From the NCBI GenBank assembly GCA_003278095.1, contig QCHB01000017.1, positions 1-34,406 of the forward strand: a stretch of DNA of 34,406 nucleotides, written 5' to 3'. A program made the position numbers and the translations under genes. This DNA is from SAR116 cluster bacterium AG-390-L20 (GTDB taxonomy: Bacteria > Pseudomonadota > Alphaproteobacteria > Puniceispirillales > Marisalimonadaceae). The notes beneath the pieces are model-generated. The model was not told the origin of the DNA. It worked only from the letters and a program-made list of their open reading frames with translations, and did no database searches. Shown here piece after piece: positions 1 to 23,215 of this stretch (positions are counted from its first letter, which is position 1; each line of letters starts with the position of its first letter).

Positions 1-2031
1 CTAGGTTCAGGTCATGATCAAGTATTTATTCAACCGATGCTTCAAGACATCAAAATCAGCGGTGTAGCATTTACAAAAGATCCAAATAACGGAAGTTTTT
101 ACTACATAATAAATTATGATGATCATTCAGGTAAGTCTGATACAGTTACTTCTGGTTATGGTAAAAATCTAAAAATTTTTTATCATGTAAAATACTCATC
201 TGATCCTGTTGTGAAGTGGAAAAAGGAATTAATAACTCTTTTAAGAGAGCTTGAACTTTTCTTCAAAAATGAAAATTTAGATGTAGAATTTGCTATTGAT
301 AAAAATATGAATTTATATTTGTTTCAAGTTAGGCCGCTAGTAATTAATAATTTTACTATTGACAAAGAAGCACATAAAAAAGCTATGGAAGGTATTTTTT
401 CTAGAACAAGTAAGTTATCTAAACCTTATCCATATTTATTCGGTAAGAAGTCAATATTTGGGATTATGCCAGATTGGAATCCTGCGGAGATTATAGGTAT
501 AAGGCCAAAACCATTAGCACTTTCTTTATACAAAGAATTAATAACTAATGGTATTTGGGCTTATCAAAGGAGCAATTATGGGTATAGAAATCTCAGAAGT
601 TTTCCTTTGCTATTAAGTTTTTCTGGTTTGCCATATATTGACGTGAGGGTTAGCTTTAATTCATTTATTCCTTCCAATTTAAGCCCAAGCTTGGCTGAGA
701 AATTAGTTAATTATTACATAAAAAAACTTCAATCAAATGAAAAAATGCATGATAAAATTGAATTTGATGTTGTATTTTCATGTTATACTTTTGATTTACC
801 TGAAAGGATTAAATCCCTAGGAAAGAATAATTTTTCCTTAAAAGAACGAAATGAAATTATAGAAAAGCTAAAACATTTAACAAATAAGATAATGAATGTT
901 AAAAATGGCTTATGGAAAAAAGATATTAAAAAATTATCTGAACTGTCAAGTAGGCAGTTAAAAATTAATAATAGTAACTTAAGTAAATTAGATAAAATAT
1001 ATTGGTTATTAGAAGATTGTAAAAGGTATGGAACTCTTCCATTTGCAGGTCTTGCCAGAGCAGGTTTCATAGCTGTACAATTTCTCCAATCAATGGTTAA
1101 TTTGGGAGCGATATCTCAAGAAGATAAAGACAACTTTATGTCATCTCTTAAAACTGTAAGTTCTTCACTTAAAAACGATTACCAATTAAACAAAGACTTT
1201 TTTATAAAAAAATATGGTCACTTGCGTCCAGGAACTTACGATATAACTTTACCTAGATATGATGAAAATCCAGAATTATACATAAACCAAATAGAAGATA
1301 GTCAATTTGATGCAAATAATCAGGAAAATGTAAATTTTACCTTGTCGCTAGATCAAATTAAGAATCTAGAAGAATTAATTAAAAAACATGATTTAAAACA
1401 TGATGTTTTAAGTATTTTTGATTTTATTAAAGGTGCAATTGAAGGAAGAGAGTATGCAAAGTTTGTTTTTACAAAAAGTTTAAGTGATATTTTATCACTA
1501 ATAACTGAATTAGGAAACGAAAATAACTTAAATTTAAATGATTTATCTTTTTGTAATATAAATTGTTTAAAAGAAGCTTATTCAACCACTGAAGATATCA
1601 ATAAAATTCTTCATTCATCAATTAAGACTGGCAAAAAGGAATATTTAAATACTTGCTCAATAACGCTACCTCCACTTATAAAAAATCCAAAAGATATTTT
1701 TTCTTTTGAATTAATTTCTTCTGAACCAAATTTCATAACTCAAAAAATCATACAGTCTGATATAATTGTTGAAGGGACTGATACTCAAAATTTATCAGGA
1801 AAAATATTGATGATTGAAAATGCAGATCCAGGGTATGATTGGATTTTTCTTCATAAAATAAGGGGGTTTGTTACCAAATATGGCGGTCTAAATTCTCACA
1901 TGGCTATTCGTGCTGCAGAATTAGGTTTGCCAGCCGCTATAGGTTCAGGAGAAGTTTTATTTAAATCCTGGTCAAAAGCTAAAACTATAAATATGGATTG
2001 TGCAAATAGACAAGTTAGAATTGTCTCATGA
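1..2031 (+). CDS. PEP-synthase-like kinase, probable L-glutamine kinase (5' partial)
   Basis: The reading frame is open from base 1, so the start lies upstream of the window; about 676 residues are visible. The first residues (FIQPML, then GVAFTKDP) are the end of a PPDK/PEP-synthase ATP-grasp domain, which closes at DVEFAID...LFQVRPL (about residues 94-115). A central domain of about 450 residues follows. A C-terminal swivelling phosphohistidine domain contains GGLNSHMAIRAAE, whose His is the expected phospho-carrier, followed by LGLPAAIG. There is no C-terminal PEP/pyruvate-binding barrel, so it is not a true PEP synthase. The same architecture is found in Campylobacter L-glutamine kinase (Cj1418), which makes L-glutamine phosphate for capsule phosphoramidate. 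The next two genes match the following two steps in the same order, and this neighbourhood is the main reason for the specific call. Its stop overlaps the next start by 4 bases (ATGA). Confidence 0.68.
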   Translation, partial: LGSGHDQVFIQPMLQDIKISGVAFTKDPNNGSFYYIINYDDHSGKSDTVTSGYGKNLKIFYHVKYSSDPVVKWKKELITLLRELELFFKNENLDVEFAIDKNMNLYLFQVRPLVINNFTIDKEAHKKAMEGIFSRTSKLSKPYPYLFGKKSIFGIMPDWNPAEIIGIRPKPLALSLYKELITNGIWAYQRSNYGYRNLRSFPLLLSFSGLPYIDVRVSFNSFIPSNLSPSLAEKLVNYYIKKLQSNEKMHDKIEFDVVFSCYTFDLPERIKSLGKNNFSLKERNEIIEKLKHLTNKIMNVKNGLWKKDIKKLSELSSRQLKINNSNLSKLDKIYWLLEDCKRYGTLPFAGLARAGFIAVQFLQSMVNLGAISQEDKDNFMSSLKTVSSSLKNDYQLNKDFFIKKYGHLRPGTYDITLPRYDENPELYINQIEDSQFDANNQENVNFTLSLDQIKNLEELIKKHDLKHDVLSIFDFIKGAIEGREYAKFVFTKSLSDILSLITELGNENNLNLNDLSFCNINCLKEAYSTTEDINKILHSSIKTGKKEYLNTCSITLPPLIKNPKDIFSFELISSEPNFITQKIIQSDIIVEGTDTQNLSGKILMIENADPGYDWIFLHKIRGFVTKYGGLNSHMAIRAAELGLPAAIGSGEVLFKSWSKAKTINMDCANRQVRIVS

Positions 2032-2654
2032 AAAATATAGCTGTGATACAAAGAGTTGAATTTATAGAAAAACGAAATGAATTTTGTGATGCTTTGGACC
2101 AAAGATGGACAGACTTATTATTATCTATAAACCTTTTCCCAATATTTCTTCCTAACAATGTATCCTATGTTAAGAAATTTCTTAAAATTAACGAAATCAA
2201 TGGACTACTTATTAGTGGAGGGGGGGCATTATTGAAATATAATGGATCCAACCCTGAAAGAGATGAAGTTGAAAACATACTGATTAATTTTTCAATTAAA
2301 AAAAATATACCAGTTCTAGGTGTGTGTAGAGGTATGCAGTCAATACAAAATTATTTTGATAATAATATTCAGATAATTAAAAATCACGTTAATAAACGTC
2401 ATACACTAAAAATTGTAGATAATACAAAAATTGGAAAAATATTAAAACAATATGATGAAGTTAATTCGTTTCATGAATATGGTTCGATTAAAACAAACAA
2501 AGATATTATTACTTTAGCTATATCTAATGATGGTATTATTGAAGCTATAAGACACATAGATAAAGAAATTTATGGTATAATGTGGCACCCAGAAAGAGAA
2601 AATCCATTTAATAAACTTGATAAATTATTTTTAAAAATGATTTTTGGAGCATGA
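2028..2654 (+). CDS. Class I glutamine amidotransferase, probable gamma-glutamyl-CDP-amidate hydrolase
   Basis: A 208-residue protein of the PuuD/gamma-glutamyl hydrolase (peptidase C26) type. It has the nucleophile elbow LGVCRGMQ with Cys100 and, near the end, GIMWHPERE giving His187 and Glu189, so the Cys-His-Glu triad is complete. An oxyanion-type glycine loop (ISGGGA, about 62-67) is also present. Generic family members cleave gamma-glutamyl amides. In the Campylobacter phosphoramidate pathway the homologous enzyme (Cj1417) releases cytidine diphosphoramidate from CDP-glutamine. That role is inferred here because the gene sits between the kinase and the cytidylyltransferase, with its ATG inside the kinase stop (ATGA) and its own stop one base before the next likely start. 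Alternative: gamma-glutamyl-GABA hydrolase, less likely in this context. Confidence 0.7.
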   Translation: MKNIAVIQRVEFIEKRNEFCDALDQRWTDLLLSINLFPIFLPNNVSYVKKFLKINEINGLLISGGGALLKYNGSNPERDEVENILINFSIKKNIPVLGVCRGMQSIQNYFDNNIQIIKNHVNKRHTLKIVDNTKIGKILKQYDEVNSFHEYGSIKTNKDIITLAISNDGIIEAIRHIDKEIYGIMWHPERENPFNKLDKLFLKMIFGA

Positions 2655-2655
2655 A

Positions 2656-3396
2656 GTGAAAGCAATTATATTAGCAGCTGGTAGAGGAAGTAGAATGGGA
2701 GAGCTTACAAGTAAACTTCCTAAATGTATGACTGTTTTGTTTAATAAACGATTAATAGAGTGGCAATTTTTGTCATTGAATCACAAAGCTATTTCAGAAA
2801 TAGGTATCGTTACCGGATATTTAAAAAATAAATTTAATTATAAAAAAAGATATTTTGTTAATAATAATTGGGAAAATACCAATATGGTTTCGTCTTTGTT
2901 AACTGCTATTGATTGGTTAAGGAATGATACTTGTATAATTTCTTATTCAGATATTATTTACGAAAAAAAAATCATAGACCAGTTAGTTAAATCAAAGGGT
3001 GACATAGTAATAACTTATGATCCTAAATGGTTAAGTTTATGGGAAAGTCGTTTTGAAGATCCATTAATAGATGCAGAAAACTTTATTATTAAAAATGGAC
3101 TTTTAAAAAATATTGGAGGTAAGTCCAAAAAATTATCTTCTATCCAAGGACAGTATATGGGCCTTATTAAGTTTTCTAAAGTTGGATGGAATAAAATTGA
3201 GAATTTTCTCAATAAATTGAATAAAAATGAAATTGACAAGATAGATATGACACAATTATTTAAAAAATTATTGAAACAAGGTTTTATCGTAAACTGTATT
3301 GCTATTGATGGAAGATGGTTAGAAGTCGATACAAAGAGTGATCTAATAAATTATCAATCAAATTATGATAAGACATTTATTTCGGACTTGGTTTAA
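2656..3396 (+). CDS. Nucleotidyltransferase, probable CTP:phosphoglutamine cytidylyltransferase
   Basis: A 246-residue NTP-transferase with the signature AIILAAGRGSRMGELTSKLPK at its N-terminus (nucleotide-binding glycine loop and catalytic Lys). SYSDIIYE, around residues 98-105, is the metal-binding Asp region. GRWLEVDTKSDL near the end is the second metal/substrate motif seen in phosphocholine-cytidylyltransferase-like enzymes. GTG at 2656 is preferred as start: GGAG at 2646-2649 lies 6 bases upstream and the protein then begins MKAIILAAG, as family members do. A longer frame from TTG 2644 would overlap that ribosome site. It is the third gene of the presumed phosphoramidate operon, corresponding to Cj1416, which attaches CMP to L-glutamine phosphate. 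A sugar-phosphate or phosphocholine nucleotidyltransferase is the alternative. Confidence 0.7.
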   Translation: MKAIILAAGRGSRMGELTSKLPKCMTVLFNKRLIEWQFLSLNHKAISEIGIVTGYLKNKFNYKKRYFVNNNWENTNMVSSLLTAIDWLRNDTCIISYSDIIYEKKIIDQLVKSKGDIVITYDPKWLSLWESRFEDPLIDAENFIIKNGLLKNIGGKSKKLSSIQGQYMGLIKFSKVGWNKIENFLNKLNKNEIDKIDMTQLFKKLLKQGFIVNCIAIDGRWLEVDTKSDLINYQSNYDKTFISDLV

Positions 3397-3488: not shown

Positions 3489-4250
3489 ATGCAAAAAGGC
3501 GATTTTTCTAATTTAGCAAGTTATTATACTAAATATAGACCTTCTTACAATAGGGAAGTTGTCAATAAAATTATCAATACGATTAATAAGAAATCTGAAA
3601 ATATACGTGCAGTCGATGTGGGTGCTGGAACTGGAATTTTTACTAAATGCTTAATTGAAGCAGGAATTAAAGATGTTGTTGCAGTTGAACCTAATGAATA
3701 TATGCGTAATACAGGCATTGAAAATCTTGGAAAAAAAATACAATTTTTTAGAGGTTCTGGAGAAAATACTACGTTGGTTAGCAACAAATACGATCTTGTA
3801 ACGATGGCATCATCCTTTCACTGGCCTAATACACAAGATACGCTCTCAGAGTTTAAACGTATTTTAAATGGTAACGGTGTTTTTGCTGCCTTATGGAATC
3901 CACGCCTTACTGAACGTTCTGATAGTGAAAATGAAGTGCAAAATCTTCTTTTAACAAAATATCATGTGGGCTCAAGAGTTTCTTCTGGATTAAGTGGAAT
4001 AACAAACCACCTTCATGACATACTATCTAAAAGTAAAATTTTTCGTTCAGTTACTTACTTTGATGCAATTAATGTTGTTAAAAGAAGTCATGAAGAATAT
4101 ATAGGCGCTTGGCGATCAGTAAATGATATCCAAGCGCAACTAGGAAAAGAAAAATTTTCACAGTTTCTGTCTGATGTTGAGAAAATTATTAAAAAACGCT
4201 CCTATGTAGAGGTGCATTATTTAACTCGAGCTTGGGTAGCCCAAAAATAA
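3489..4250 (+). CDS. Class I SAM-dependent methyltransferase
   Basis: A 253-residue Rossmann-type methyltransferase. Motif I is AVDVGAGTGIFTK (about residues 40-52), the acidic end of strand 2 is VAVEPNEYM (about 66-74), and motif IV/post-motif is TMASSFHWPNTQDTLSEFKRILNGNG (split around residues 104-130). This is the Methyltransf_11 pattern, including the family's N-terminal FSNLASYYTKYRPSY. AGG 8 bases before ATG 3489 supports the start. The substrate cannot be read from sequence. It follows the phosphoramidate-type genes on the same strand after a 92-base gap holding a weak terminator-like hairpin. A role in methylating the phosphoramidate or its glycan is possible (Campylobacter MeOPN loci also carry methyltransferases) but unproven. 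Confidence 0.75.
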   Translation: MQKGDFSNLASYYTKYRPSYNREVVNKIINTINKKSENIRAVDVGAGTGIFTKCLIEAGIKDVVAVEPNEYMRNTGIENLGKKIQFFRGSGENTTLVSNKYDLVTMASSFHWPNTQDTLSEFKRILNGNGVFAALWNPRLTERSDSENEVQNLLLTKYHVGSRVSSGLSGITNHLHDILSKSKIFRSVTYFDAINVVKRSHEEYIGAWRSVNDIQAQLGKEKFSQFLSDVEKIIKKRSYVEVHYLTRAWVAQK

Positions 4251-4348: not shown

Positions 4349-4367
4349 TTAAGTAAGACTTACTTAA
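4349..4367. repeat. Inverted repeat between convergent genes
   Basis: Arms TTAAGTAAG (4349-4357) and CTTACTTAA (4359-4367) flank one base. It overlaps the stop codon of the minus-strand TPR/OGT gene and sits 98 bases after the convergent methyltransferase gene. It may act as a weak bidirectional transcription end, but there is no T-run on either side. Confidence 0.3.
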
Positions 4368-7336
4368 TTCGGTACAATAATAGTTTCAGGAACTTTGCCA
4401 TCACAATAATTTTGATAAGCGGTTAGGTACCCATTTTCTAAGTATTTAGTATATAACTCAGTATCAAACAGTGGTTGTGACAACCGATTTGCTGCTAATT
4501 TTTCTTTAATTTGAAAAAGTTTATTGGGATTAGTGGCAAGTTCTAATATCAGTGATTCATAGTCATGGTTATTTCTTGTTATTAATTCTGGAAGTCCAAT
4601 AGCATTTAGTAAACTTGCTGCAACTCTAGCAGCAAAACCTTGACCTTGTTTTGTAACTACAGGTAATCCTGACCATAGTGCTTCTGAAGCGGTTGTGTGT
4701 GCATTAAAAGAAAACGTGTCAATGAACAAATCTGCTAACTTATGTCTACTTAAGTGTTCTTTCATCGGCAATTTATCAGCAAATACAATTCTTGTTTCAC
4801 AGATATTTCTTTTTTTTGCTGCTTTTATAATATTTTTATCAGACAGTTGATTAGACCTTCTGAGCCATAAAACACTTCCTTTAACTTTACTAAGTAATCG
4901 CATCCAAATCTCAAATTCTAGATCTGTAATTTTATAGTTATTGTTGAAACAGCAAAATACAAAAGATTTATCAGGTAATCCCATGTCACGTCGAGAAATT
5001 AAGCGATTGGAAAACTCTCTACTATTATCTGTTGGCATATAAGTGTTAGGAAGGTAAAGTAGCTTTTCAGTAAAGTATTTCCTGTTATTAGGTGGAATTA
5101 AATATTGATCAGCTATTATATAATCAATGAAATCTGCCCCCATTGTTCCAGGAAAACCAAGATAATTGATTTGAACAGGAGCAGCACGATAAGCAAAAAT
5201 GCTACTTCTGCTGTTTCGAGTATAACCATTTAAATCAATAGCAATATCAATATTGTCTTGTCTACAAAGAACAGCCACTTCTTTATCACTTATCCCGCTT
5301 ACATCTTTAAAAACATCAAATGATTTTGTAAGTCTTTTTCTTAATTCATCATCTTTACTACCTATAAGAGAGTAAGCAAAAATGTCGAATTTATCACGGT
5401 TATGTAATTCTATAACTTTTGCTATCAAATAAGCGACAGGATGACTCACAAAATCTGAACTAAAATAACCAATACGAATACGCTCTGATTTTTTCAATGT
5501 CTTGGTTTGAAATGACATTGGTTTTTCAGGAAAATTGTTTTTAGCATATATTCTCGAACGCATATAATGACGTTCAGGGGCATCTTCTAAAGAAAGTATT
5601 GCTAACGGATTAATATGTTTTTCAGATATTCCTAGGCTAGGTATTAATTTCCTATCTTTTTCAATGGAGTGCCAATCACAAATGTTAGCTTGCTGATAAA
5701 GCTTTTGTACTCTAGCGGCCTCGTAATCAGGTTTGAGTGAAAGTGCTTTTTCATAAGCTTCAATAGCTTCATCTTCTTTGCCTTGGTCTGCGAGAGCATT
5801 TCCCAAATTATAATAGGCTTCAATATAATCAGGCTTAAGTGAAAGTGCTTTATTATAAGCCTCTATTGCTTTGTCTAGTTTGCCTTGGTATCTAAAAGCG
5901 ACCCCAAGGTTGACAAAACCTTTTGCATAATTAGGATTTATTGATATTGCATTATTATAAGATTCAATAGCTTTATTTAGCTTTCCCTTATATTTGAAAG
6001 CATTACCCATATTATTATAAGCATCAGAATAATCAGGCACAAGTAATAATGCTTTATTATATGAGTTTATAGCTTCATCCAGTTTTCCTTGATCTTTAAG
6101 AGAAATGCCAAGATTATTATGCGCCTCTGCAAAATTAGGTTTAAGCACGACGGCTTTATTATAACACTCAATTGCTTCCTCGATTTTATTTTGATTTTGG
6201 AAAGTTATACCCAAGTTGTTATAAGCCTCAGCATAATCAGGATTAAGTGAGAGTGCTCTATTATAGGCTTCTATCGCCTCATTAAATTTGCAAAGGTCTT
6301 GAAGAGTTAATCCCAAGTTGTTATAAGCCTCAGCCCAATTAGGTTTGAGTGAAAGAGCTTTATTATAGGCCTCAACAGCTTTTTCCAATTCGCTTTGATC
6401 TTTTAGAGTGTTCCCCATATTGTGATATGATTCAGCGTAGTCGGGTTTTATTAATAGAGCTTTATGATAAAATTCAATAGCTTTTTCCAATTTACCTTGA
6501 CCTTGAAGAGCAACACCCATGTTATTATACGCGTCAGCATAATTAGGATTCAGTGATAGTGCTTTATCATAAGCCTCAATAGCTTTTTCTATTTTACCTT
6601 GGTCTATAAAAGCATTACCCATATTATTAAAGGCTTCAGTATAATCTTCTTTAAGTGAAAGTGCCTTATCATAAGCTAATAAGGCTTCTTCCACTTTACC
6701 TAGATCTTTGAAAGCAACACCCACATTATTGTAAGCCTCAGCATAATCAGGCTTAATTGATATAGCTTTATTATAAGAATCAATAGCTTCATCGAGTTTA
6801 CCTTGATCTTTGAGTGTCATACCCATGTTAAGATAAGTTACAGCATAATCAGGCTTGATGGATAAAGCTTTATTGTACGCTTCTATGGCATCATCTAGTT
6901 TGCCTTGATCTTTGAGACTGACTCCAAGATTATTAAACCCGTCAGCATAATTTGGGTTCAACTCTGTAACTTTCTTGAAAGCGTCTGAAGCCTTTACAAC
7001 TTGTCCCAATCTCTTATTTGCAGCTCCTAAAATATTCCAAAGGATAAATGCCTGAGGATATTGTTTTGTAAGTATTTGTAATTGTTTGACAACATCAACA
7101 AATTGACCTTGATTATAAAGATTGATCAGGTGATTAATTGTTTCCTGATTTAAACTCTGGGTTGCATATGCTTGTTGAGACTTCTTTAACATTGCTAAAC
7201 CTTGTTGAGCAGGTATATTTTCAGGAAAACTGTCTAACACTGATTGGTATAGTTTTTGTGCTTCTAAAATCTCATCTTTTTCTAAATGAGACTTTGCCTT
7301 CATAAGCGCTTGATCTAAAGATAGTTCTACTAACAT
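4364..7336 (-). CDS. TPR protein with O-GlcNAc-transferase (GT41/SPINDLY-type) domain
   Basis: A 990-residue protein. Residues 1-133 form a divergent helical/TPR-like segment. About twelve near-perfect 34-residue TPR units (consensus YNNLGxxxxDQGKLDEAIEAYNKALSLKPDYAEA, read as a pattern) span about 134-541. The C-terminal half is the catalytic part of GT41, with RIGYFSSDFVSHPVA, INYLGFPGTMGADFIDY, FCCFNNNYKI, and DTFSFNAHTTASEALWSGLPVVT followed by GFAARVAASLL. It should transfer a sugar from a nucleotide donor to Ser/Thr of a protein bound by the TPR superhelix, in the cytoplasm. It lies 46 bases downstream of the second TPR gene and is probably co-transcribed from the sigma-54 promoter at 9699-9714. 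Flagellin is the likeliest acceptor given the flagellar cluster next door, but no flagellin gene is present here. Confidence 0.88.
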   Translation of the reverse strand: MLVELSLDQALMKAKSHLEKDEILEAQKLYQSVLDSFPENIPAQQGLAMLKKSQQAYATQSLNQETINHLINLYNQGQFVDVVKQLQILTKQYPQAFILWNILGAANKRLGQVVKASDAFKKVTELNPNYADGFNNLGVSLKDQGKLDDAIEAYNKALSIKPDYAVTYLNMGMTLKDQGKLDEAIDSYNKAISIKPDYAEAYNNVGVAFKDLGKVEEALLAYDKALSLKEDYTEAFNNMGNAFIDQGKIEKAIEAYDKALSLNPNYADAYNNMGVALQGQGKLEKAIEFYHKALLIKPDYAESYHNMGNTLKDQSELEKAVEAYNKALSLKPNWAEAYNNLGLTLQDLCKFNEAIEAYNRALSLNPDYAEAYNNLGITFQNQNKIEEAIECYNKAVVLKPNFAEAHNNLGISLKDQGKLDEAINSYNKALLLVPDYSDAYNNMGNAFKYKGKLNKAIESYNNAISINPNYAKGFVNLGVAFRYQGKLDKAIEAYNKALSLKPDYIEAYYNLGNALADQGKEDEAIEAYEKALSLKPDYEAARVQKLYQQANICDWHSIEKDRKLIPSLGISEKHINPLAILSLEDAPERHYMRSRIYAKNNFPEKPMSFQTKTLKKSERIRIGYFSSDFVSHPVAYLIAKVIELHNRDKFDIFAYSLIGSKDDELRKRLTKSFDVFKDVSGISDKEVAVLCRQDNIDIAIDLNGYTRNSRSSIFAYRAAPVQINYLGFPGTMGADFIDYIIADQYLIPPNNRKYFTEKLLYLPNTYMPTDNSREFSNRLISRRDMGLPDKSFVFCCFNNNYKITDLEFEIWMRLLSKVKGSVLWLRRSNQLSDKNIIKAAKKRNICETRIVFADKLPMKEHLSRHKLADLFIDTFSFNAHTTASEALWSGLPVVTKQGQGFAARVAASLLNAIGLPELITRNNHDYESLILELATNPNKLFQIKEKLAANRLSQPLFDTELYTKYLENGYLTAYQNYCDGKVPETIIVPN
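5714..6937 (-). repeat. TPR-encoding tandem array, 102-bp units
   Basis: Twelve consecutive 34-codon units of the upstream half of the TPR/OGT gene. Units share long stretches, for example the minus-strand coding of GCTTATAATAA-like and AAAGCACT-like segments recurring every 102 bases. A divergent thirteenth unit precedes them in the protein (about residues 100-133). Confidence 0.85.
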
Positions 7337-7382: not shown

Positions 7383-9662
7383 TTAACGTTTATTAATGTT
7401 ATTTTTTAAGTTAAAAACATCTTTTGCAATCAAATTAAAGACATTATCCCATGGCTCCCATATGTTTCTCTCGAATACGTTTACAGAAGAACTTGAAGGG
7501 CTTAATAAAATATTATTACAAGAACTTTGTCGATAATTTAGAACTTTAGTTGGTGTTCCAACCCCTCCTGAGATTATTGGCACAGATATTTGAGATGATA
7601 TAACCATATCTAATGCAGCGCAAAGTGCCGCCACATCGTCTATGTCATTGAAATGATCTAAATCATCAAAATTATGTACCTTTAGTCCAAATTTATCTTC
7701 AATTTTATTTAAATCACATTCAAAATTTATATATTGTAAATTAATAAAAGTTGTATCAGGGACACTAAGAACAGGAAACCATTCAGTTATTTTGGTATTA
7801 TTTGGAAGCTTGTCAGGCGAGGTATTAGAGCTTTTCCAGGCAATTCCAATGTAAGGACCTTTTCCTATGTCCTTAAGTCGTTCTTTCCAAAATGTAACCC
7901 TTTCTGCATTTGGAACAAGATGAGAAGCCGCTTTTGCATTTGTATCAATTTTATCATTAAAGTGCCTGTAAAGACTACCCATGGGTAAATGAACATCAAA
8001 GTCATCTCTTTCCATATCAAAGCTTCTATTCTCAGGTTTTATTTCTACGTTTGGAAATGAGCGTTTTAACAATGGAACTAATTTTTCTTGGCATTCTAAA
8101 ATACAGTGTTTAGCCTGTGCTGCTAATAGTGAAAGACATGAGGACCACCTAATTGTGTCCCCGATACCTTGTTCACTCCATAGAAGTATTGTTTTATTAC
8201 GAAGACTTTGTTTTTTGTTCAAGAAAGGCTTAGAAAAATGCCGTTTATGTGACTTAAAAACTTCAGTTTCAAAACGCCATTCATATGCATCAAGACCTTC
8301 TTTTATTTTACCAGAATTTAGAAGCGTAAAACTCATGTTATGATGTGCTTCAGGAAAATCGGGTTTAAGAGATAGTGCTTTATGGTAAGCCTCTAATGAC
8401 GCCTCTAGTTTTCCTTGGTCTTTGAAAGCTGATCCCATATTACTTAAGGCATCAGCGTAATCAGGCTTAAGTGATAATGCTTTATGGAATGCTACTATTG
8501 CTTCATCCGGTTTACCTTGGTCTATAAAAGTGGCGCCCTTATTATTATGAGCTTCAGCGTAATTAGGCTTAAATGTGAGAGCTCTATTAAAAGCCTCAAT
8601 AGCTTTATTAAGTTCACCTCTTTTTTTATAAATATTACCAATATTGTTATAAACAGCAACGTAATTGGGCCTGAGTGATAATGCCTTTTTATATGCGTTT
8701 AGAGCTTTATCAAATCTGCCCTTAGTTTGGAAAGTTAAACCTATGTTGTTATAAGCCTCAGCATAATCAGGTTTTAACGCAAGTGCTTTATTGTAAGCCT
8801 CAATAGCTTCGTCAAGTTTATCTTGATTTTGTAGGGTTGCCCCAATGTTATTATAGGCTTCAGCATAATTAGGCTTAAGTGACAGTGCTTTATTGAATGA
8901 TTTTATAGCTTCATCCAATTTGCCTTGATCTATAAAAACAGAACCTTTGTTATTATGGGCTTCAGCGTAATCTGGCTTAAGTAATAATACTTTATTGAAT
9001 GTCTCTATGGCTTTATCAAGTTTACCTTCTTCTTTGAGTGTGGTTCCCATGTTATAATGAGCCTCAGTATAATCAGGCTTAAGTAACAATGCTTTATTAT
9101 ATGCTTTTATAGCTTTATTCATTTTGCCTTGGTATTTGAAAACATTGCCAAGGTTGTTATAAGCCTCAGCATAATCAGGCTTAAGTAATAAGGCTTTATT
9201 AAATGAGTCTACAGCATCATCCAATTTACCTTGATCTTTAAGAGTGATGCCAAGATTAATATAACCATCAGCGTAATTTGGGTTCAACTCTGTAACTTTT
9301 TGGAAAGCTTCTAAGGCCTTTTCAGTTTGCTTTAAGCCAATATTTGCTGCTCCTAGAATATTCCATACAACAAAAGCTTTAGGATACTGCTTTATAATAG
9401 ATTGTGCTTGCTCAACCACAGCTACAAGTAGTCCTTGGTTATAGAAATTTACTAGTTGATTGAGTTCTTTCGCAGGGGGAGTTTGTATTGCATTATCTTG
9501 AGTATAATTGCTTAAAGCAGCTAATCCTTGTTGTGCTCTTGTATTGTTGGGAAAAGCCAGTAAAACATCTTGGTATACCTTTTGGGCTTCTTTGATCTCT
9601 TTTTTATTTACATGAGATCTAGCTTTCATAATCGCTTGATCAACGGAAAATCTTACCGACAT
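7383..9662 (-). CDS. TPR protein with heptosyltransferase-like (GT-B) C-terminal domain
   Basis: A 759-residue paralog of the neighbouring TPR/OGT protein. The first 133 residues align without gaps (both read AQQGLA, VVWNILGAAN or ILWNILGAAN, and KVTELNPNYADG at the same positions). Nine full 34-residue TPR units follow at about 134-439, plus a tenth degenerate one. The C-terminal 280 residues are different: ILLWSEQGIGDTIRWSSCLSLL, GPYIGIAWKSS, then DIDDVAALCAALDMVISSQISVPIISGGVGTP (split here only in reading). This is the pattern of TPR proteins with a GT9/heptosyltransferase-like domain. It is probably a cytoplasmic protein glycosyltransferase or partner of the OGT protein; alphaproteobacterial flagellin glycosyltransferases of the TPR type (FlmG) are a reasonable comparison. 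A sigma-54 promoter match lies just upstream. Confidence 0.78.
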   Translation of the reverse strand: MSVRFSVDQAIMKARSHVNKKEIKEAQKVYQDVLLAFPNNTRAQQGLAALSNYTQDNAIQTPPAKELNQLVNFYNQGLLVAVVEQAQSIIKQYPKAFVVWNILGAANIGLKQTEKALEAFQKVTELNPNYADGYINLGITLKDQGKLDDAVDSFNKALLLKPDYAEAYNNLGNVFKYQGKMNKAIKAYNKALLLKPDYTEAHYNMGTTLKEEGKLDKAIETFNKVLLLKPDYAEAHNNKGSVFIDQGKLDEAIKSFNKALSLKPNYAEAYNNIGATLQNQDKLDEAIEAYNKALALKPDYAEAYNNIGLTFQTKGRFDKALNAYKKALSLRPNYVAVYNNIGNIYKKRGELNKAIEAFNRALTFKPNYAEAHNNKGATFIDQGKPDEAIVAFHKALSLKPDYADALSNMGSAFKDQGKLEASLEAYHKALSLKPDFPEAHHNMSFTLLNSGKIKEGLDAYEWRFETEVFKSHKRHFSKPFLNKKQSLRNKTILLWSEQGIGDTIRWSSCLSLLAAQAKHCILECQEKLVPLLKRSFPNVEIKPENRSFDMERDDFDVHLPMGSLYRHFNDKIDTNAKAASHLVPNAERVTFWKERLKDIGKGPYIGIAWKSSNTSPDKLPNNTKITEWFPVLSVPDTTFINLQYINFECDLNKIEDKFGLKVHNFDDLDHFNDIDDVAALCAALDMVISSQISVPIISGGVGTPTKVLNYRQSSCNNILLSPSSSSVNVFERNIWEPWDNVFNLIAKDVFNLKNNINKR
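8346..9263 (-). repeat. TPR-encoding tandem array, 102-bp units
   Basis: Nine consecutive 34-codon TPR units of the second TPR gene, close in nucleotide sequence to each other and to those of the neighbouring TPR/OGT gene. This fits recent expansion or gene conversion between the two genes. Confidence 0.82.
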
Positions 9663-9939: not shown

Positions 9940-11097
9940 TTAATAATTACTTTGATTAACATTTATCGAATATTTCTTCATTTTTTCTATCAGTGTTGTT
10001 CTTCTCAACTTTAATTTATCTGCAGCTAGGGCGACTTTATTATTTGTTTTTTCTAGGGCTTCTTCTATTAAAACAATTTCTACATCTTGAAGGTGCCTTC
10101 TTAAGTCAATTTCGTCATAAAAGGAAAACCAGTTTTTGTAATTTTTGGGATGAGGTAAATAATCTTCAGCACTATTACCATGATCAATTTCGTCAATGTT
10201 TGTAATACCACTCAAATCTGATGTCATTTCCCACAGGGCATCTTGTTCTTCTGCAACAGAGGGTACCTTTAACCTAAGAAGATTTTCATAGACATTTGAA
10301 CTTGTAATTTCTTTTCCAGGAAAAATTATACATGCTCTCTCAATTACATTCTTTAGTTCACGAACATTTCCTGGCCAATTGTGTTTAGTAAGAGCTGTTA
10401 TTGCGTCTGGTGTAAAAATTGGTTTAACTAATTCTTCTAAATTTAAATTTGATAACAGTTTTTCCTGAAGGCTAGGTATGTCTGTTCTTCGTTCAGCAAG
10501 AGAGGGGACATTAATTGGAAGGACATTTATTCTAAAAAATAGGTCAGCTCTGAACTCACCGCTCTCCACTTTTTTTTCTAAATCTCTGTGAGTTGCACAA
10601 ATCAATCTTAAATCAATCTTGATATCGTCTGCCCCCCCAACACGTTGAATAGACCTACTTTCAATAGCTCGTAGTAACTTTGCCTGAAGAGGTAAGGGCA
10701 TATCACCAATTTCATCTAGGAATAAAGAGCCACCACTTGATTGTTCAAATCTACCTTTTCTTTGTTTATCTGCACCTGTAAAAGATCCTTTTTCATGACC
10801 AAAAAGTTCAGATTCTAATAATTCAGAAGGAATTGCAGCACAATTTACTGTAACAAAGGGTCCTTTTTTTTTTGAACAATTATGAATAGCTTGTGCAACT
10901 ATATCTTTACCTGTTCCTGTTTCTCCTAAAATCAATGCTGTACTGTCTGTTTGGGAAACCATTGCAATCAAATTTTTCATTGATTTAGTTTCTGCACTCT
11001 CCCCGTCAATCATATCATTTAGCTTATCAATAATAGATTTTTCTTGAAAGGATTTACTTGATAATTTATCAACAACGTTCATTTTAAAATCCGTCAA
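9940..11097 (-). CDS. Sigma-54-dependent activator with Fis-type DNA-binding domain, no receiver (FlrA/FlrC/FleQ-like)
   Basis: A 385-residue enhancer-binding protein. About 35 N-terminal residues lead straight into the AAA+ domain: Walker A GETGTGKD at 58-65, sigma-54 contact loop GSFTGA at 104-109 (Ser in place of the usual Ala), Walker B SLFLDEIGD at 124-132, and the sensor/lid region NWPGNVRELKNVIERA. The C-terminus carries a Fis-type helix-turn-helix ending LRRTTLIEKMKKY, a tail typical of flagellar regulators of the FlrA/FlrC/FleQ group. No receiver domain is present, so it cannot be controlled by phosphorelay in the NtrC manner. It is divergent from the second activator, with a palindrome 23-44 bases before its start. 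It probably activates the sigma-54 flagellar promoters in this window. Confidence 0.85.
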   Translation of the reverse strand: MTDFKMNVVDKLSSKSFQEKSIIDKLNDMIDGESAETKSMKNLIAMVSQTDSTALILGETGTGKDIVAQAIHNCSKKKGPFVTVNCAAIPSELLESELFGHEKGSFTGADKQRKGRFEQSSGGSLFLDEIGDMPLPLQAKLLRAIESRSIQRVGGADDIKIDLRLICATHRDLEKKVESGEFRADLFFRINVLPINVPSLAERRTDIPSLQEKLLSNLNLEELVKPIFTPDAITALTKHNWPGNVRELKNVIERACIIFPGKEITSSNVYENLLRLKVPSVAEEQDALWEMTSDLSGITNIDEIDHGNSAEDYLPHPKNYKNWFSFYDEIDLRRHLQDVEIVLIEEALEKTNNKVALAADKLKLRRTTLIEKMKKYSINVNQSNY

Positions 11098-11271: not shown

Positions 11272-12468
11272 ATGAGCCAGGTCATTGTTATAAAAAATAA
11301 TCTAAAAATAGTTAATAATTTGTGTGACATATTAGAAAAAAGAGATGTTACAGTAATTAAGGCAGGCACTGACAATTCAAAGCCTGATTTTCTTGGTATT
11401 GATTTAGTAGGTTACCAAGCAGATACAATCGTATGCTCAGATATTTTTGAAAAAGAAATTGGTGGCTCTTCAAAATTAGTGTCATTTGCTAGGCAAGCTA
11501 AATTATCGAAAATCATTGTTATAGCTGATGATACTAAAATTAACGGAATTGAAATTAAAGATGAATTAGGTGGAGCAGTTAAAAGGATTACAGTTTCGGA
11601 TTATACAGACAAATATGCATTAGAATTAATTTTTAACACCTGCTGCCCTCATATCTTATTTTCTGCTGGAGACACAAAAACCTATGAGCTCTTATCACTT
11701 GCAAGAAGAGTAGCAATTACAGATGTAACAGTTTTTATTAATGGCCCAACTGGATCTGGGAAAGAAGTTTTAGCTAATTACCTACATGAAAACTCTAATA
11801 GAAAAAATGAACCCTTTGTAGCTGTAAACTGTGCTGCTATCCCAGAGAATATGTTAGAGGCAATCCTATTTGGACATGAAAAGGGCGCCTTTACAGGTGC
11901 TTCAAATGCAAACAAAGGAATTTTCAGAGCTGCAGATAAAGGAACGTTGCTTTTAGACGAAATTTCTGAAATGCCTTTATCCCTGCAAGCAAAATTATTA
12001 AGAGTTTTACAAGAAAGAAAAGTTACACCTGTTGGTGGTCAAAGAGATATTGATGTAGATGTAAGAGTTTTGGCAACATCAAATAGAGATATGGCACATG
12101 AAGTAAATCAATCGAGGTTTAGAGAAGATTTATATTACAGATTAAACGTATTTCCACTTCAAACACGTAACTTATCTTCGAGAAAAGATGATATTTTACC
12201 GATCTCAATAAAAATTTTAGATAAGCACAATAATGAAAGTAAAACAACGCCTTATATTACAAGTGACGCAAGAGATTTGTTATCAAGTCATAATTGGCCA
12301 GGAAATGTAAGAGAATTAGAAAATACGCTTCAAAGAGCGTTAGTATTGTGTAAAGACAACATTATTGATGGTAAATCTATAATGATAGATAAATCTTTAT
12401 CAAATATAAGTGAAAATTCATCAGTTGATTCTTTTGCTGATCAATTAGCTTTTGCAAAAGTAACATAA
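11272..12468 (+). CDS. flbD: Sigma-54 activator of the FlbD type lacking a DNA-binding domain
   Basis: A 398-residue protein. Residues 1-125 have the alternating strand/helix pattern of a response-regulator receiver (VIVIKNN, DTIVCSD, KIIVIADD) but lack the usual paired acidic residues near the N-terminus, so the fold is degenerate. The AAA+ domain has Walker A GPTGSGKE at 158-165, GAFTGA at 205-210, Walker B GTLLLDEISE near 225-235, and NWPGNVRELENTLQRA. After the AAA+ lid only about 40 polar residues remain, ending at AFAKVT, with no Fis helix-turn-helix; FlbD and NtrC relatives normally carry about 50-60 residues there. The stop is followed 13 bases later by fliE, so no remnant is present. 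It presumably acts from solution or through the divergent DNA-binding activator. The gene name rests on position and partial similarity. Confidence 0.72.
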   Translation: MSQVIVIKNNLKIVNNLCDILEKRDVTVIKAGTDNSKPDFLGIDLVGYQADTIVCSDIFEKEIGGSSKLVSFARQAKLSKIIVIADDTKINGIEIKDELGGAVKRITVSDYTDKYALELIFNTCCPHILFSAGDTKTYELLSLARRVAITDVTVFINGPTGSGKEVLANYLHENSNRKNEPFVAVNCAAIPENMLEAILFGHEKGAFTGASNANKGIFRAADKGTLLLDEISEMPLSLQAKLLRVLQERKVTPVGGQRDIDVDVRVLATSNRDMAHEVNQSRFREDLYYRLNVFPLQTRNLSSRKDDILPISIKILDKHNNESKTTPYITSDARDLLSSHNWPGNVRELENTLQRALVLCKDNIIDGKSIMIDKSLSNISENSSVDSFADQLAFAKVT

Positions 12469-12481
12469 GAGGAAATAGAGT

Positions 12482-12796
12482 ATGCAAGTTTCAAATCAAA
12501 ATATTAGTAGTTCAAGTCTCCTTCGTCAAAATATATTAGAAAAAGCAAATCAAGCATTATCGGGAGGAGAAAAGGCAGAAGATTTTTCAAAAAAAATTAA
12601 TGATGCCATTAATTCTGTAGCTGACAGTCAGAATAAAGCTTCAAAAATAACTAAGGATTACGAGCTTGGGAAAGAAACTGATTTAACTAAAGTTATAATG
12701 CAACAACAAATATCAAGTATAGCATTTCAAATGACTTTGAATGTTAGAAATAAGGTTTTGAGTTCTTACAAAGATATAATGAATATGCCCGTTTAA
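12482..12796 (+). CDS. fliE: Flagellar hook-basal body protein FliE
   Basis: A 104-residue protein, the usual FliE length. It has a polar N-terminus and the diagnostic C-terminal half KVIMQQQISSIAFQMTLNVRNKVLSSYKDIMNMPV (seen from about residue 70), in which the family's Q-x(5)-F-x(5)-VRNK(L/V)-x(3)-Y-x(2)-IMxMxV pattern is intact. FliE joins the MS ring to the proximal rod and is an early export substrate. It is first of the structural genes, 13 bases after the activator gene with a GAGG ribosome site, and 23 bases before fliF. Confidence 0.92.
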   Translation: MQVSNQNISSSSLLRQNILEKANQALSGGEKAEDFSKKINDAINSVADSQNKASKITKDYELGKETDLTKVIMQQQISSIAFQMTLNVRNKVLSSYKDIMNMPV

Positions 12797-12819
12797 ATTA
12801 ATTTAATTAGGAAAAGAAA

Positions 12820-14535
12820 ATGGCAGAAGCAACAACTGGAAATAATTTAACTGGAATGAATCAAGGCACAGGTGTTATTAGTAGAATTTCATCATCTTTT
12901 TCAAATGTAAAAAAGATGACTGCTGATCCTGCGGTTCAAAAATCAATACCTTTGATATTTGGAGTAATTGTTGCCTTTATAGGATTAATAGTTTTCTTTA
13001 CAATGCAAAAATCAGATATGACAACTTTGTTTGCGTCACTTCCAGAAAGTGAAAAGGCAAATGTAATTCAAACATTAAAACAAAACGGGGTTGATGTTTC
13101 CTTAAATCCATCAACCGGAGAAGTTATAGTACCAGTTAAGGATTATCATGAATCTAGAATGCTACTTGCAGGAGAAGGACTACCGTCATCTGTGCCAGAT
13201 GGCTATGATACTTTAGGTGACATGCCAATGGGTACTAGTAGGTCAGTGGAGGCAATTAAAATAAAGCAATCTCTGGAAGCGGAATTAGCAAGATCTATAA
13301 ACCATATTTCTGGTATAAGTTCAGCAAGAGTCCATTTAGCTATTCCTGAAAAAACAGTATTTGCTAGAGAAATTGCTTTACCCTCAGCCTCAGTATTTGT
13401 GAAATTATCCAATGGAAGATCTTTGGGAAGGCAACAAGTTCAATCAATAGTACATTTAGTTTCCTCTTCCGTCCCTAACTTACCCTCAGAAAAAATAACT
13501 GTTGTAGATCAATTTGGTGAACTCTTATCTAAGCCATCTAACGACGTTGGAACATCTTCATCAAATGAACAAATGTCTCAAACTATGAGATTAGGCGAGA
13601 TATATAGATCAAGAATTATTTCATTATTAACACCAATTGTAGGTGCAGGAAATTTAAAGGCCGAAATTAATGTGGATATGAATTTTACTAAAAGAGAGAT
13701 AACAGAAGAATCTGTAGACCCTAAAGGAAATGCTCTTAGAAGTGAGCAAACTTCATTAGATGAAAGTGCTAATCCAGAAGCAAGAGGAATTCCAGGTGCA
13801 CTGTCTAACGCTCCTCCTTTAGCACCTGATCTAAAAACAACAGTTCCCGAAGGTAAAGATGCAGGTGGTACTTTAAAACAAAGAAGTCAAACATCAGTTA
13901 AAAATTACGAAGTAAGCAGAAAAATCGAGACCACAACAGCTCAATATGGGGAAATTAAGAAAATTAAGGCTGCCGTTATAATAAGAGAAAAGAAAATAGT
14001 ATCACCAGAAGGATTGGTATCTTATGAAAAAATTAGTGACGAAAAGTTACTGGAAATTAAATCATTAGTTCAAGAAGCTCTTGGTTATGATGAAGTAAGA
14101 GGTGATAGCGTAACGGTAAAAAGTAGTCCGTTTGTAGATATACTTGAGGAAGACGTTGTTCCTTGGTATGAAAATGAGTCAATAAAAGAACTTGCGCAAC
14201 AATTAGCAACTGTTTTAATTTTAGCAATAGTAATATTTGGAGCACTTCATCCTCTCTTGAAAAGGGTACTTGTTCCAGCTGGATATTCATCTGGACCTGG
14301 AGTAATGGTTGGAGATGACATTGATGACGATGATGAAAAAATTGAGGTTCAAGAAGGTGAGTCACTTGAGGATATAAAGGCTAAATTAAAGCCTAAAAAG
14401 TCTGCTATTTCTGCGGAAATGCTTGATACTGCTAATACATATGACGACAAAGTTGCTGTAATTAGAATGATTGTTGGAGATGAGGCAGGTCGTGTTTCGA
14501 GTGTTTTCAAAGGCATGATGGAAAGAGATTCTTAG
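12820..14535 (+). CDS. fliF: Flagellar MS-ring protein FliF
   Basis: A 571-residue inner-membrane protein, typical length. The first membrane segment is at residues 43-62 (LIFGVIVAFIGLIVFF) and the second near 462-482 (ATVLILAIVIFGAL). Between them lie the periplasmic ring-building motifs: SGEVIVPVKDYHESRMLLAGEGLP (read around residues 99-125), RSVEAIKIKQSLEAELARSI, and VHLAIPEK. The last 35 residues (DKVAVIRMIVGDEAGRVSSVF) form the cytoplasmic FliG-binding tail. It assembles the MS ring that houses the export gate encoded downstream. Confidence 0.95.
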   Translation: MAEATTGNNLTGMNQGTGVISRISSSFSNVKKMTADPAVQKSIPLIFGVIVAFIGLIVFFTMQKSDMTTLFASLPESEKANVIQTLKQNGVDVSLNPSTGEVIVPVKDYHESRMLLAGEGLPSSVPDGYDTLGDMPMGTSRSVEAIKIKQSLEAELARSINHISGISSARVHLAIPEKTVFAREIALPSASVFVKLSNGRSLGRQQVQSIVHLVSSSVPNLPSEKITVVDQFGELLSKPSNDVGTSSSNEQMSQTMRLGEIYRSRIISLLTPIVGAGNLKAEINVDMNFTKREITEESVDPKGNALRSEQTSLDESANPEARGIPGALSNAPPLAPDLKTTVPEGKDAGGTLKQRSQTSVKNYEVSRKIETTTAQYGEIKKIKAAVIIREKKIVSPEGLVSYEKISDEKLLEIKSLVQEALGYDEVRGDSVTVKSSPFVDILEEDVVPWYENESIKELAQQLATVLILAIVIFGALHPLLKRVLVPAGYSSGPGVMVGDDIDDDDEKIEVQEGESLEDIKAKLKPKKSAISAEMLDTANTYDDKVAVIRMIVGDEAGRVSSVFKGMMERDS

Positions 14536-14577
14536 ATTAAGTTAAGTGAGATTAAGTTAAGAAAGTAGGGTAATAAA

Positions 14578-15615
14578 ATGGCGGAAGCAGCAAAAAAACC
14601 TAATGCAAATGAAGTATATCAAGGTTTAACTGGTACACAGAAATGCGCAATTTTGATGATGTTAATTGGTGAAGATGAAGCTGCAGAGATAATGGCAAAT
14701 TTATCTCCTAAAGAAGTACAAGTCCTGGGATCAGCAATGTACTCTGTACAAGGTTTAGGACAAGATACTGTTAACTTAGTTCTAGATGAATTTTTAGCAA
14801 TTATTAAAGCTCAAACAAGCTTAGGTATTTCTGGGGGTAGTTACATCAAAAATGTATTAACTAAATCTTTGGGAGATGACAAAGCTCAAACTGTTTTGGG
14901 TAAAATCACACCATCAGATAGTAATAAAGCTATTGAGATTTTAGATTGGCTTGATGCAAGATCTATTGCTGACTTAATTATTGACGAACATCCTCAGATT
15001 GTTGCATTAATTATCTCTTACTTAGAGCCCACAACTGCGTCAGATGTTCTAAATTTTATGCCTGAAGAACGTCAATCTGATTATATAAGAAGAATAGCAA
15101 CATTAGAAACAGTTCAACCTGAGGCATTAAAAGAATTAGACAGGGTGATGCAAAAAGTATTCTCATCAAATGCTAGTTTGAGAGCTAGTAAAGTTGGTGG
15201 TGTGCCAGCAGCAGCCAAGATAATGAACTTTTTGAGTGGTGATAATGAAGCAAAGATTATGAAGGAAATACTGAAGGAAGATAAACAGTTAATGTTATCA
15301 ATTCAAGATAGTATGTTTGTATTTGAAACATTATTATTATCTGACGATAAATCTCTTCAAACTCTACTTCGAGCAGTTGAAGATGACTTGATAATTCTTG
15401 CTCTTAAAGGCGCGGATGATGAGTTGAAAACAAAATTATTTGGATGCATGTCTCAACGTGCAGCGGCAAATATTCAAGATGAAATGGAAGCTCTTGGTCC
15501 AGTAAGACTTACTGAAGTACAAGAGGCTCAAAAGCAAATAATTGCTGTGGCAAGACGAATGTCTGATGAAGGATCGATAGTACTAGCAGGACGTGGCGGC
15601 GATGATTATGTATAA
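14578..15615 (+). CDS. fliG: Flagellar motor switch protein FliG
   Basis: A 345-residue protein with all three FliG parts. The N-terminal FliF-binding domain begins at LTGTQKCAILMMLIGEDEAAEI. The middle domain carries the EHPQ motif at residues 137-140 (IIDEHPQIVALIISYL). The C-terminal torque domain has the charged helix DDELKTKLFGCMSQRAA near the stator contact and ends QKQIIAVARRM. It forms the rotor face touched by the stator and binds FliM. It is separated from fliF by 42 bases. Confidence 0.95.
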   Translation: MAEAAKKPNANEVYQGLTGTQKCAILMMLIGEDEAAEIMANLSPKEVQVLGSAMYSVQGLGQDTVNLVLDEFLAIIKAQTSLGISGGSYIKNVLTKSLGDDKAQTVLGKITPSDSNKAIEILDWLDARSIADLIIDEHPQIVALIISYLEPTTASDVLNFMPEERQSDYIRRIATLETVQPEALKELDRVMQKVFSSNASLRASKVGGVPAAAKIMNFLSGDNEAKIMKEILKEDKQLMLSIQDSMFVFETLLLSDDKSLQTLLRAVEDDLIILALKGADDELKTKLFGCMSQRAAANIQDEMEALGPVRLTEVQEAQKQIIAVARRMSDEGSIVLAGRGGDDYV

Positions 15616-15629
15616 ATCGAGATAAAACA

Positions 15630-16676: not shown

Positions 16677-16702
16677 TAAGCTAAAAACACCGGATATGTT
16701 TA

Positions 16703-18022: not shown

Positions 18023-18031
18023 GACATATAA

Positions 18032-18424
18032 TTGGAAAAGAAAATTAAAAGATTTCAGAGACTTGCAACTCTTAGAAAAAGAGATATTTCAAAGGAAATT
18101 ACAAACTCAAATTTGTTGGAAAATGAAATTACTAAAAATAAAAACCTTATTGATCAAATCAATACAATTATGGATAGTAGTAAGGATGATCCCTCAAAAA
18201 AAATAATTAGCTCAGGTTATTTTAAGAATAATGCTCAACTTTTAAATACGCTCCAAAGTCAAAAAAATATAGCTACCAACAGAAATAAATATTTGTTAAA
18301 TGAAAAACAAATCACACAAAAGAAAATTTTAATAAATAATTTAAAAAAAAATAAAGCTGAAGAAAAAACTTTAGAGTATCAAAAATCTTTTGTTAGAGAA
18401 TTAGAAAGAAGAAATAATAAATAG
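18032..18424 (+). CDS. fliJ: FliJ-like flagellar export chaperone
   Basis: A 130-residue protein, mostly charged helix with heptad-like spacing (coiled coil), of the size and composition of FliJ, directly after fliI. It starts at TTG 18032, with AGGA at 18021-18024 seven bases upstream, 9 bases after the fliI stop. FliJ sequences are poorly conserved, so the name depends mainly on position and coiled-coil character. The role would be the central stalk of the FliI ring. Confidence 0.72.
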   Translation: MEKKIKRFQRLATLRKRDISKEITNSNLLENEITKNKNLIDQINTIMDSSKDDPSKKIISSGYFKNNAQLLNTLQSQKNIATNRNKYLLNEKQITQKKILINNLKKNKAEEKTLEYQKSFVRELERRNNK

Positions 18425-18499
18425 AGTTTGATCCTCAAAAAAATATATTTTTATTTATGGCACTGTATTTGCAGAAATCTTAAAAATATGGAATTTAAG

Positions 18500-19885: not shown

Positions 19886-19912
19886 TATCAACAATATAGT
19901 AGTGAGAGAAAA

Positions 19913-20509: not shown

Positions 20510-20526
20510 AATAGGGTTGTAGAATT

Positions 20527-21495: not shown

Positions 21496-21514
21496 TTTAG
21501 TAGGAGTTATTTTA

Positions 21515-21829: not shown

Positions 21830-21899
21830 TCTTCAAAATTTTGACAACTTATTATAACAAAATATTCATATAAATCAGTAGTTTATTTTTTTACGGAAT

Positions 21900-21915
21900 T
21901 GGCACCTTTTTTGCT
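21900..21915 (+). promoter_or_regulatory. Sigma-54 promoter of the fliO-P-Q-R-flhB operon
   Basis: TGGCAC-CTTTT-TTGCT is an exact match to the sigma-54 consensus TGGCAC-N5-TTGCW in bases and spacing. Transcription would begin near 21926, some 20 bases before the fliO ATG at 21946. No enhancer-like palindrome similar to that at 11120-11141 was found in the 150 bases upstream, which are partly fliN coding sequence. Confidence 0.82.
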
Positions 21916-21945
21916 TCTTTTATCCAAATATAAAGGAAAGCTAAA

Positions 21946-23212: not shown

Positions 23213-23215
23213 AAA

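Follow-up and report, generated by a model that had tools for sequence, protein, structure and literature searches.

The described system closest to the one examined here is the O-methyl phosphoramidate pathway of Campylobacter jejuni, encoded by cj1415–cj1418 in a capsule locus. In Campylobacter the genes are transcribed in the order kinase, hydrolase, cytidylyltransferase, with a gene for a protein resembling adenosine 5'-phosphosulfate (APS) kinase last, and methyltransferases for the pathway are present; Cj1417 is the hydrolase and Cj1415 the cytidine diphosphate (CDP)-amidate kinase. The phosphoramidate on the C. jejuni capsule is reported to be recognised by a phage. The roles of Cj1418 (glutamine kinase) and Cj1416 (cytidylyltransferase), and the composition of the gene set, are those given in published accounts, including PMC12275187. 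The modification is said in one review (PMC6429109) to have been identified so far only in Campylobacter, the glutamine kinase is called C. jejuni-specific in another (PMC9561416), and unmethylated phosphoramidates of Xanthomonas and Shewanella lipopolysaccharide are noted in PMC3907429. Here we analyse a cassette of related genes at one end of a 34,406-nucleotide stretch of DNA (the window; contig QCHB01000017.1, hereafter C17) from the SAR116 cluster bacterium AG-390-L20, which is best read as a Campylobacter-type phosphoramidate donor cassette, with a candidate for the fourth enzyme and a methyltransferase, at a flagellar locus. Cassettes of this kind are known; their breadth and their flagellar place are little described in the literature within reach, and in a literature search that did not extend to most subscription papers, none of the titles or abstract openings listed reports such a cassette from SAR116 or from a place among flagellar genes.

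Base 1 of the window is the end of C17, one of the 33 contigs of a 2.23-Mb genome, and the N-terminus of the kinase is therefore cut off in the window. The cassette genes are:

1..2031, plus strand: L-glutamine-kinase-like enzyme, C-terminal 676 residues (NF004508, 891.1 bits; frame open at its 5' end)
1897..1899, plus strand: His633 codon; this residue of the motif GGLNSHMAIR is the presumed phospho-carrier (from alignment)
2028..2654, plus strand: gamma-glutamyl-CDP-amidate-hydrolase-like class I amidotransferase (P0002), 208 residues, Cys100-His187-Glu189 (below the equivalog cut-off)
2656..3396, plus strand: CTP:phosphoglutamine-cytidylyltransferase-like protein of LicC type (from PDB match and homologue alignment)
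3489..4250, plus strand: class I S-adenosylmethionine-dependent methyltransferase (P0004), a probable cassette member (homologues in loci L036 and L037)

The initial annotation had described three overlapping or abutting genes at 1–3396, and they are present in that arrangement (open frames 1–2031, 2028–2654 and 2644–3396). That these genes, their order and their catalytic residues are real, and not a product of chance, is confirmed, because the kinase scores 891.1 bits against a cut-off of 501 and the same companions occur in many genomes. We consider it very probable that CDP-amidate and its 3'-phosphate are produced here to donate a phosphoramidate, which may be methylated, to a glycan of the cell surface; the gene types, synteny and fusions support the synthesis of cytidine diphosphoramidate that the initial annotation had proposed. 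In such a pathway the cytidylyltransferase would couple N-phosphoglutamine with cytidine triphosphate (CTP), and the amidotransferase would then take off glutamate to leave CDP-amidate, the 3'-hydroxyl of which would be phosphorylated by the APS-kinase-like protein encoded on another contig (C28), giving a donor resembling 3'-phosphoadenosine 5'-phosphosulfate (PAPS). A putative transferase would pass the phosphoramidate to a surface glycan, perhaps one borne on flagellin, judging from the genomic place, and the methyltransferase may O-methylate it. These reactions, except for the methylation, which like the acceptor is read from context, are all transferred from the Campylobacter enzymes, as known from reviews and citing papers, to genes, gene order, residues, synteny and fusions that were observed directly. 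The set shares with cj1415–cj1418 the four enzyme types, as judged from sequence, the kinase-hydrolase-cytidylyltransferase order and a methyltransferase nearby; it differs in that the APS-kinase-like gene comes first rather than last, in that the hydrolase falls below its equivalog cut-off and no transferase was found, and in lying at a flagellar place in a marine alphaproteobacterium rather than in a capsule locus.

The kinase matches NCBIfam model NF004508 over profile positions 108–788 and is by score a member of the NF004508/PRK05849 family, the model of which is itself named hypothetical protein and assigns no function. Pfam places PPDK_N at residues 75–130 of the 676 and the mobile domain of phosphoenolpyruvate (PEP)-utilising enzymes at 600–668; the protein ends right after the latter and thus has no PEP barrel, which bears out the barrel-less, PEP-synthase-like kinase with a swivelling His domain read by the initial annotation. 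This is the architecture of a glutamine kinase (nucleotide-binding part, swivelling His domain, no barrel), with the N-terminus on C28. His633 lies within TKYGGLNSHMAIR, in a column invariant in all seven aligned sequences, and the motif GGxNSHMAIR is kept in 77 kinases of the 80 best loci. These loci are the best by kinase similarity of at least 575 confirmed kinase-encoding stretches, not a random sample, and one of them (L063) is locus L037, which was among those used to build the search profiles. Other models score the kinase far lower than the 891.1 bits of NF004508: those of PEP synthases reach 42.4 bits at most, and the rifamycin phosphotransferase model gives 31. In a FastTree tree of 92 rows, 86 members of the kinase family stand apart, with a support of 100, from an outgroup of six other PEP-utilisers, which we labelled PEP-synthase-like and among which there is no named rifampicin phosphotransferase. 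On the model scores and the separate tree position we reject the readings of the kinase as a PEP synthase or a rifampicin phosphotransferase.

The amidotransferase has the complete Cys-His-Glu triad that the initial annotation had seen, as Cys100, His187 and Glu189, and the triad is conserved in all 78 homologues aligned from the 80 best loci. Its top model among 18950 in NCBIfam is gamma-glutamyl-CDP-amidate hydrolase (NF045546), at 122.8 bits, with the next model at 60, and its best Pfam family is Peptidase_C26, a broad family. The best PDB match is a PuuD chain (E 1.1e-7), and no Campylobacter hydrolase is named among the 25 PDB matches listed. The PuuD equivalog PRK11366 gives 40.2 bits, below its cut-off of 266, which, set against the 122.8 bits of the CDP-amidate hydrolase model, disfavours PuuD as an identification. 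According to the initial annotation, it would be contradicted if the kinase fell among PEP synthases or rifampicin phosphotransferases and the hydrolase with PuuD; as far as this can be tested, neither the model scores nor the kinase tree show such a result.

The same genes are linked in other genomes. With thresholds of 150 bits for the hydrolase, 150 for the cytidylyltransferase and 100 for the APS-kinase-like protein, within 7 kb of the kinase, the hydrolase is found in 78 of the 80 best loci, the cytidylyltransferase in 78, the APS-kinase-like gene in 75 and all three in 72, compared with none of the three in any of 22 control loci around other PEP-utilising enzymes, with flanks of 1.5 kb at most. 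Five of the eight incomplete loci are at a record end (L083, L084, L089, L106 and L142); the L117 record stops some 370 bases past a phosphatase-type frame that comes after the hydrolase, so that a cytidylyltransferase may be cut off. All three companions lie near the kinase in each of the seven other alphaproteobacterial loci examined. Among 198 related genomes, the organism's own included, the kinase exceeds its cut-off in seven, and in an eighth (G047) the C-terminal end of a kinase is seen at the edge of a contig. At E 0.001 the hydrolase model finds matches in 180 of the 198, none over its cut-off, and the eight top hydrolase scores (88.7–131.7 bits; next 55.9) fall in exactly the eight kinase genomes. 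A hydrolase match at E 1e-15 is present in 48 of 50 genomes drawn from the 80 best loci, again with none over the cut-off. Some of the genes are fused: a 1009-residue acidobacterial frame (L140 2738–5764) joins APS-kinase and kinase domains, both shown by Pfam; another acidobacterial frame (L138 2992–5937) matches the APS-kinase-like and kinase profiles, on profile evidence; and a single frame of an unverified faecal record labelled 'Bacteriophage sp.' (L161 619–3684) matches the kinase and hydrolase profiles.

Two plasmid loci have further peculiarities. On an Azospirillum lipoferum plasmid (L143 8323–10863) the APS-kinase domain occupies residues 658–801 of an 846-residue protein, the part before it having no Pfam family at E 0.01. 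On a Vibrio alfacsensis plasmid, an unannotated cytidylyltransferase-like stretch with matches in two frames (L144 12645–13441) lies between the hydrolase and a CDP-glycerol phosphotransferase, with cysD and cysN upstream.

These data bear on the view that PEP-synthase-like and PuuD-like housekeeping enzymes are merely chance neighbours here, accompanied by a sulfate-activating kinase. The copy on the A. lipoferum plasmid is annotated in just these terms (PEP-utilizing enzyme, gamma-glutamyl-gamma-aminobutyrate hydrolase family protein, adenylyl-sulfate kinase), and the hydrolase finds its closest PDB match in a PuuD chain, but the linkage in 72 of 80 loci against 0 of 22 controls, the fusions, the missing barrel and tree position of the kinase and the presence of a separate CysC in the genome disfavour this view, which we regard as highly improbable.

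The initial annotation had placed the fourth step outside the window, and there it is indeed absent; elsewhere in the genome, inspection of the genes upstream, which the initial annotation had proposed, yielded a candidate CDP-amidate kinase and no phosphoramidate transferase. The genome has three APS-kinase matches, of which that on contig C3 (219.8 bits, in a 620-residue frame) resembles an ordinary CysN-CysC and that on C7 scores a weak 22 bits. The remaining one (PF01583, 104.2 bits) is at the end of C28, a contig of 3925 bases, which carries:

C28:159-701, minus strand: APS-kinase-like gene, candidate CDP-amidate kinase (PF01583, NF004041)
C28:1-155, minus strand: kinase N-terminus (C28:33-155 matches kinase profile positions 8–48)

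Directly 3' of the APS-kinase-like gene, on the minus strand of C28, a kinase frame starting MPIFETKANTLKVLEK is open to the contig end. The first residue of the window kinase corresponds to a position 98–111 residues into six relatives; with 51 residues read on C28, about 47–60 codons would lie in the gap between C28 and C17, and from this fit of the kinase pieces we infer that the two contigs are adjacent. The C28 protein has the PF01583 match in common with the canonical APS kinase CysC and is over the cut-off of NF004041 (188.5 bits vs 127), but it differs from CysC in falling below the cut-off of the apsK equivalog TIGR00455 (115.3 bits vs 138.7) and in having ISMFEEIRA in place of the ISPFEQDRQ of the genome's own CysC; cassette copies of relatives are like the C28 protein at this motif. 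Farther along C28 (L035; 1439–3925), both strands carry fragments of TPR and GT41 genes, with one GT41 domain cut short, which look like rearranged copies of flanking paralogues.

The cytidylyltransferase frame can be read from a TTG at 2644 (250 residues), and its homologues align from about a GTG at 2656. Its best solved relative is the CTP:phosphocholine cytidylyltransferase 1jyk (LicC; E 4.4e-13); by analogy with Campylobacter, the window enzyme would couple phosphoglutamine to CTP. Cytidylyltransferases of this type accept several phospho-substrates, according to PMC12275187, and a related CDP-activated amino-acid or amine pathway might therefore be considered; in Clostridioides difficile, for instance, the type A glycan of flagellin has been suggested to be made via CDP-threonine. 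The type A clusters (C. difficile cd0240–cd0244, Pseudomonas aeruginosa pa1088–pa1091) likewise have a cytidylyltransferase among flagellin-glycan genes, and also a TagF-like transferase, but the published hypothesis involves phosphothreonine rather than a glutamine-derived amidate, and no glutamine kinase or gamma-glutamyl hydrolase is described for the cluster in the part of PMC10714395 consulted, which is our source for these points. With both of those enzymes linked here, together with an APS-kinase-like gene, we think such a pathway improbable.

The methyltransferase is 43% and 48% identical to methyltransferases of L036 and L037, which sit between the APS-kinase-like gene and the kinase. 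A methyltransferase scoring at least 100 bits lies near the kinase in 64 of the 80 best loci, and in 22 of those 64 the score is at least 230 bits. The window gene probably belongs to the cassette, and from its context it is possible that the enzyme O-methylates the phosphoramidate.

Candidates for the phosphoramidate transferase, a role that in Campylobacter falls to proteins of the Cj1421/Cj1422 type, come from other genomes. A cluster of sulfotransferase-type frames occurs in eight loci (backed by Pfam for L120, L127 and L128), and seven of the eight frames overlap an APS-kinase-like, cytidylyltransferase or methyltransferase gene or lie within about 120 bases of one, that of L122 being 781 bases away; L037 has a weak Pfam sulfotransferase directly after its cytidylyltransferase. 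A second cluster, of 13 frames, includes L036:7510-8679 (PF04464), directly before the APS-kinase-like gene; five others adjoin a core gene and seven are about 2 kb off, and the L108 member has no Pfam match. The frames of both clusters are candidate phosphoramidate transferases. A further family (A5) precedes the APS-kinase-like gene in ten loci, most of them from Pseudomonas, and nine of its members were aligned; the idea that it is TagF-like found no support, with no Pfam match for L116 and a probability of 1.6% in a profile comparison with L036:7510-8679, and it has no solved relative beyond one chance-level match (E 0.65). In 13 loci a phosphatase-type frame lies inside the cassette or next to it; the one member scanned, in L036, is Pfam Inositol_P and in our reading CysQ-like. 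Such an enzyme would be suited to taking the 3'-phosphate off the nucleotide released by the transfer, and so to recycling a 3'-phosphonucleotide.

Beyond the methyltransferase, the window holds:

4364..7336, minus strand: TPR protein with a GT41 domain, candidate flagellin glycosyltransferase, FlmG-like in layout only (Pfam)
7383..9662, minus strand: TPR protein (Pfam)
9940..11097, minus strand: sigma-54 activator, used as the anchor for finding the same place in genus relatives (Pfam)
11272..25486, plus strand: another sigma-54 activator, with FliF-, FliG-, FliI-, FliK-, FliM-, FliR- and FlhB-type flagellar genes (scan of part of the frames)

The neighbourhood of the cassette thus comprises flagellar genes, sigma-54 activators and the genes of two TPR proteins, of which the first also has a GT41 domain. 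Caulobacter FlmG, likewise from an alphaproteobacterium, is a flagellin glycosyltransferase with an N-terminal flagellin-binding part and a C-terminal transferase part, and it needs pseudaminic acid; the protein at 4364–7336 is like it in layout. The anchor activator is present in 26 of 40 genus genomes, the organism's own included, at E 1e-80, and one of them, G001, matches window positions 3261–11237, the end of the cytidylyltransferase included, at 94.2% nucleotide identity, so that this part is no chimera of the present assembly. In six of the seven genus stretches fetched (G014, G035, G003, G007, G038 and G004) flagellin-like frames are found on the facing side, with FliD- and FlgL-like frames also at this place in G035 and G003; these names were given by eye from N-terminal motifs rather than by Pfam. 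Also by eye, CysD- and CysN-CysC-like genes lie among the flagellin-like frames of G014 (L150 8163–10963) and G038 (L154 7349–10149), and G007 holds a small sugar-modification-like set. The CysD- and CysN-CysC-like genes suggest that the place is a variable cargo slot for glycan modification. The place of the cassette points to a flagellar glycan rather than a capsule.

Farther afield, a cluster of flagellin-N-type frames occurs in eight loci, all Pseudomonas or Gammaproteobacteria records, several of them near-identical (Pfam for L103); that of L092 is about 9 kb from its kinase. The same phosphoramidate donor might instead be used on O-antigen or capsule, in which case its position among flagellar genes would be a coincidence. 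In L037, L039, L040 and L041 the cassette lies among nucleotide-sugar and glycosyltransferase-like frames, and a DegT-aminotransferase-like cluster is found in 31 loci (both by eye); the TPR-GT41 and flagellar flanks of the window, the flagellin-like genes in six of seven relatives and the flagellin-N-type cluster argue the other way. We hold this alternative, which concerns the acceptor only and overlaps in probability with the donor pathway proposed above, to be plausible but doubtful. With flagellin-like genes at this place in six of the seven genus relatives examined, we favour a flagellin glycan as the likeliest acceptor, a choice from context in which we place as much confidence as doubt.

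Several observations weigh against the interpretation as a whole or in part. No phosphoramidate transferase is in sight in the organism's own genome, as far as it is assembled: it has no PF04464 match, and its sole sulfotransferase match (PF13469) falls on C3, which also carries the CysC of ordinary appearance. The 122.8 bits of the amidotransferase are below the cut-off of 250 of the CDP-amidate hydrolase model, as are all 49 hydrolase matches listed for the 50 further genomes, and the link to Campylobacter runs through that best, sub-cut-off model, published gene roles and synteny. NF004041, passed by the C28 protein, is itself named adenylyl-sulfate kinase, and C28 and C17 do not overlap, their adjacency resting on inference. 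L087 and L120 have a kinase with no detected hydrolase and no contig end to explain it. As to the acceptor, the cassette of G011, G019 and others is among polysaccharide-like rather than flagellar genes (by eye), and the organism's own assembly has no Flagellin_N match; its flagellin genes perhaps lie in assembly gaps. FliD is represented in the genome only by partial matches in a 1893-residue frame on C14 (C14:60-3608), repeated stretches of which share 37–45% identity with a portion of the FliD-like protein of a relative.

The 80 best loci come from several phyla, and among them, out of at least 575, there is no record titled Campylobacter. In the tree the window kinase groups with those of L127 (a gammaproteobacterium) and L132 (Nitrospina), with supports of 92 and 97, and the three kinases from the same genus (window, G019 and G011) are scattered over three positions, a pattern indicative of horizontal transfer. 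The grouping of L040 with L041 is possibly a long-branch artefact, and the window row is unusual in its residue composition. At the DNA level, blastn found no match to the cassette in E. coli genomes. One kinase relative (30% identity; L160 4201–6012, reaching the end of an IMG/VR contig) was found in a viral collection and one, the unverified faecal record L161, in a phage collection; we take neither to show that phages carry the cassette.

Taken further, and with more reserve than conviction, these data would fit methylated phosphoramidate on the flagellin of some marine Alphaproteobacteria and, independently, of some Pseudomonas-type bacteria, through a widespread, horizontally moving cassette; in this genus it would occupy a place among flagellin-like genes where other genomes have genes for sulfate activation or another sugar modification, so that one slot would be decorated by way of either PAPS or its phosphoramidate mimic. 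If the reading of the cassette is true, phosphorus–nitrogen bonds on bacterial surfaces would be far commoner than described, the sea included, and the loci of non-pathogens would offer a route to phosphoramidate transferases outside Campylobacter and to the role of the decoration.

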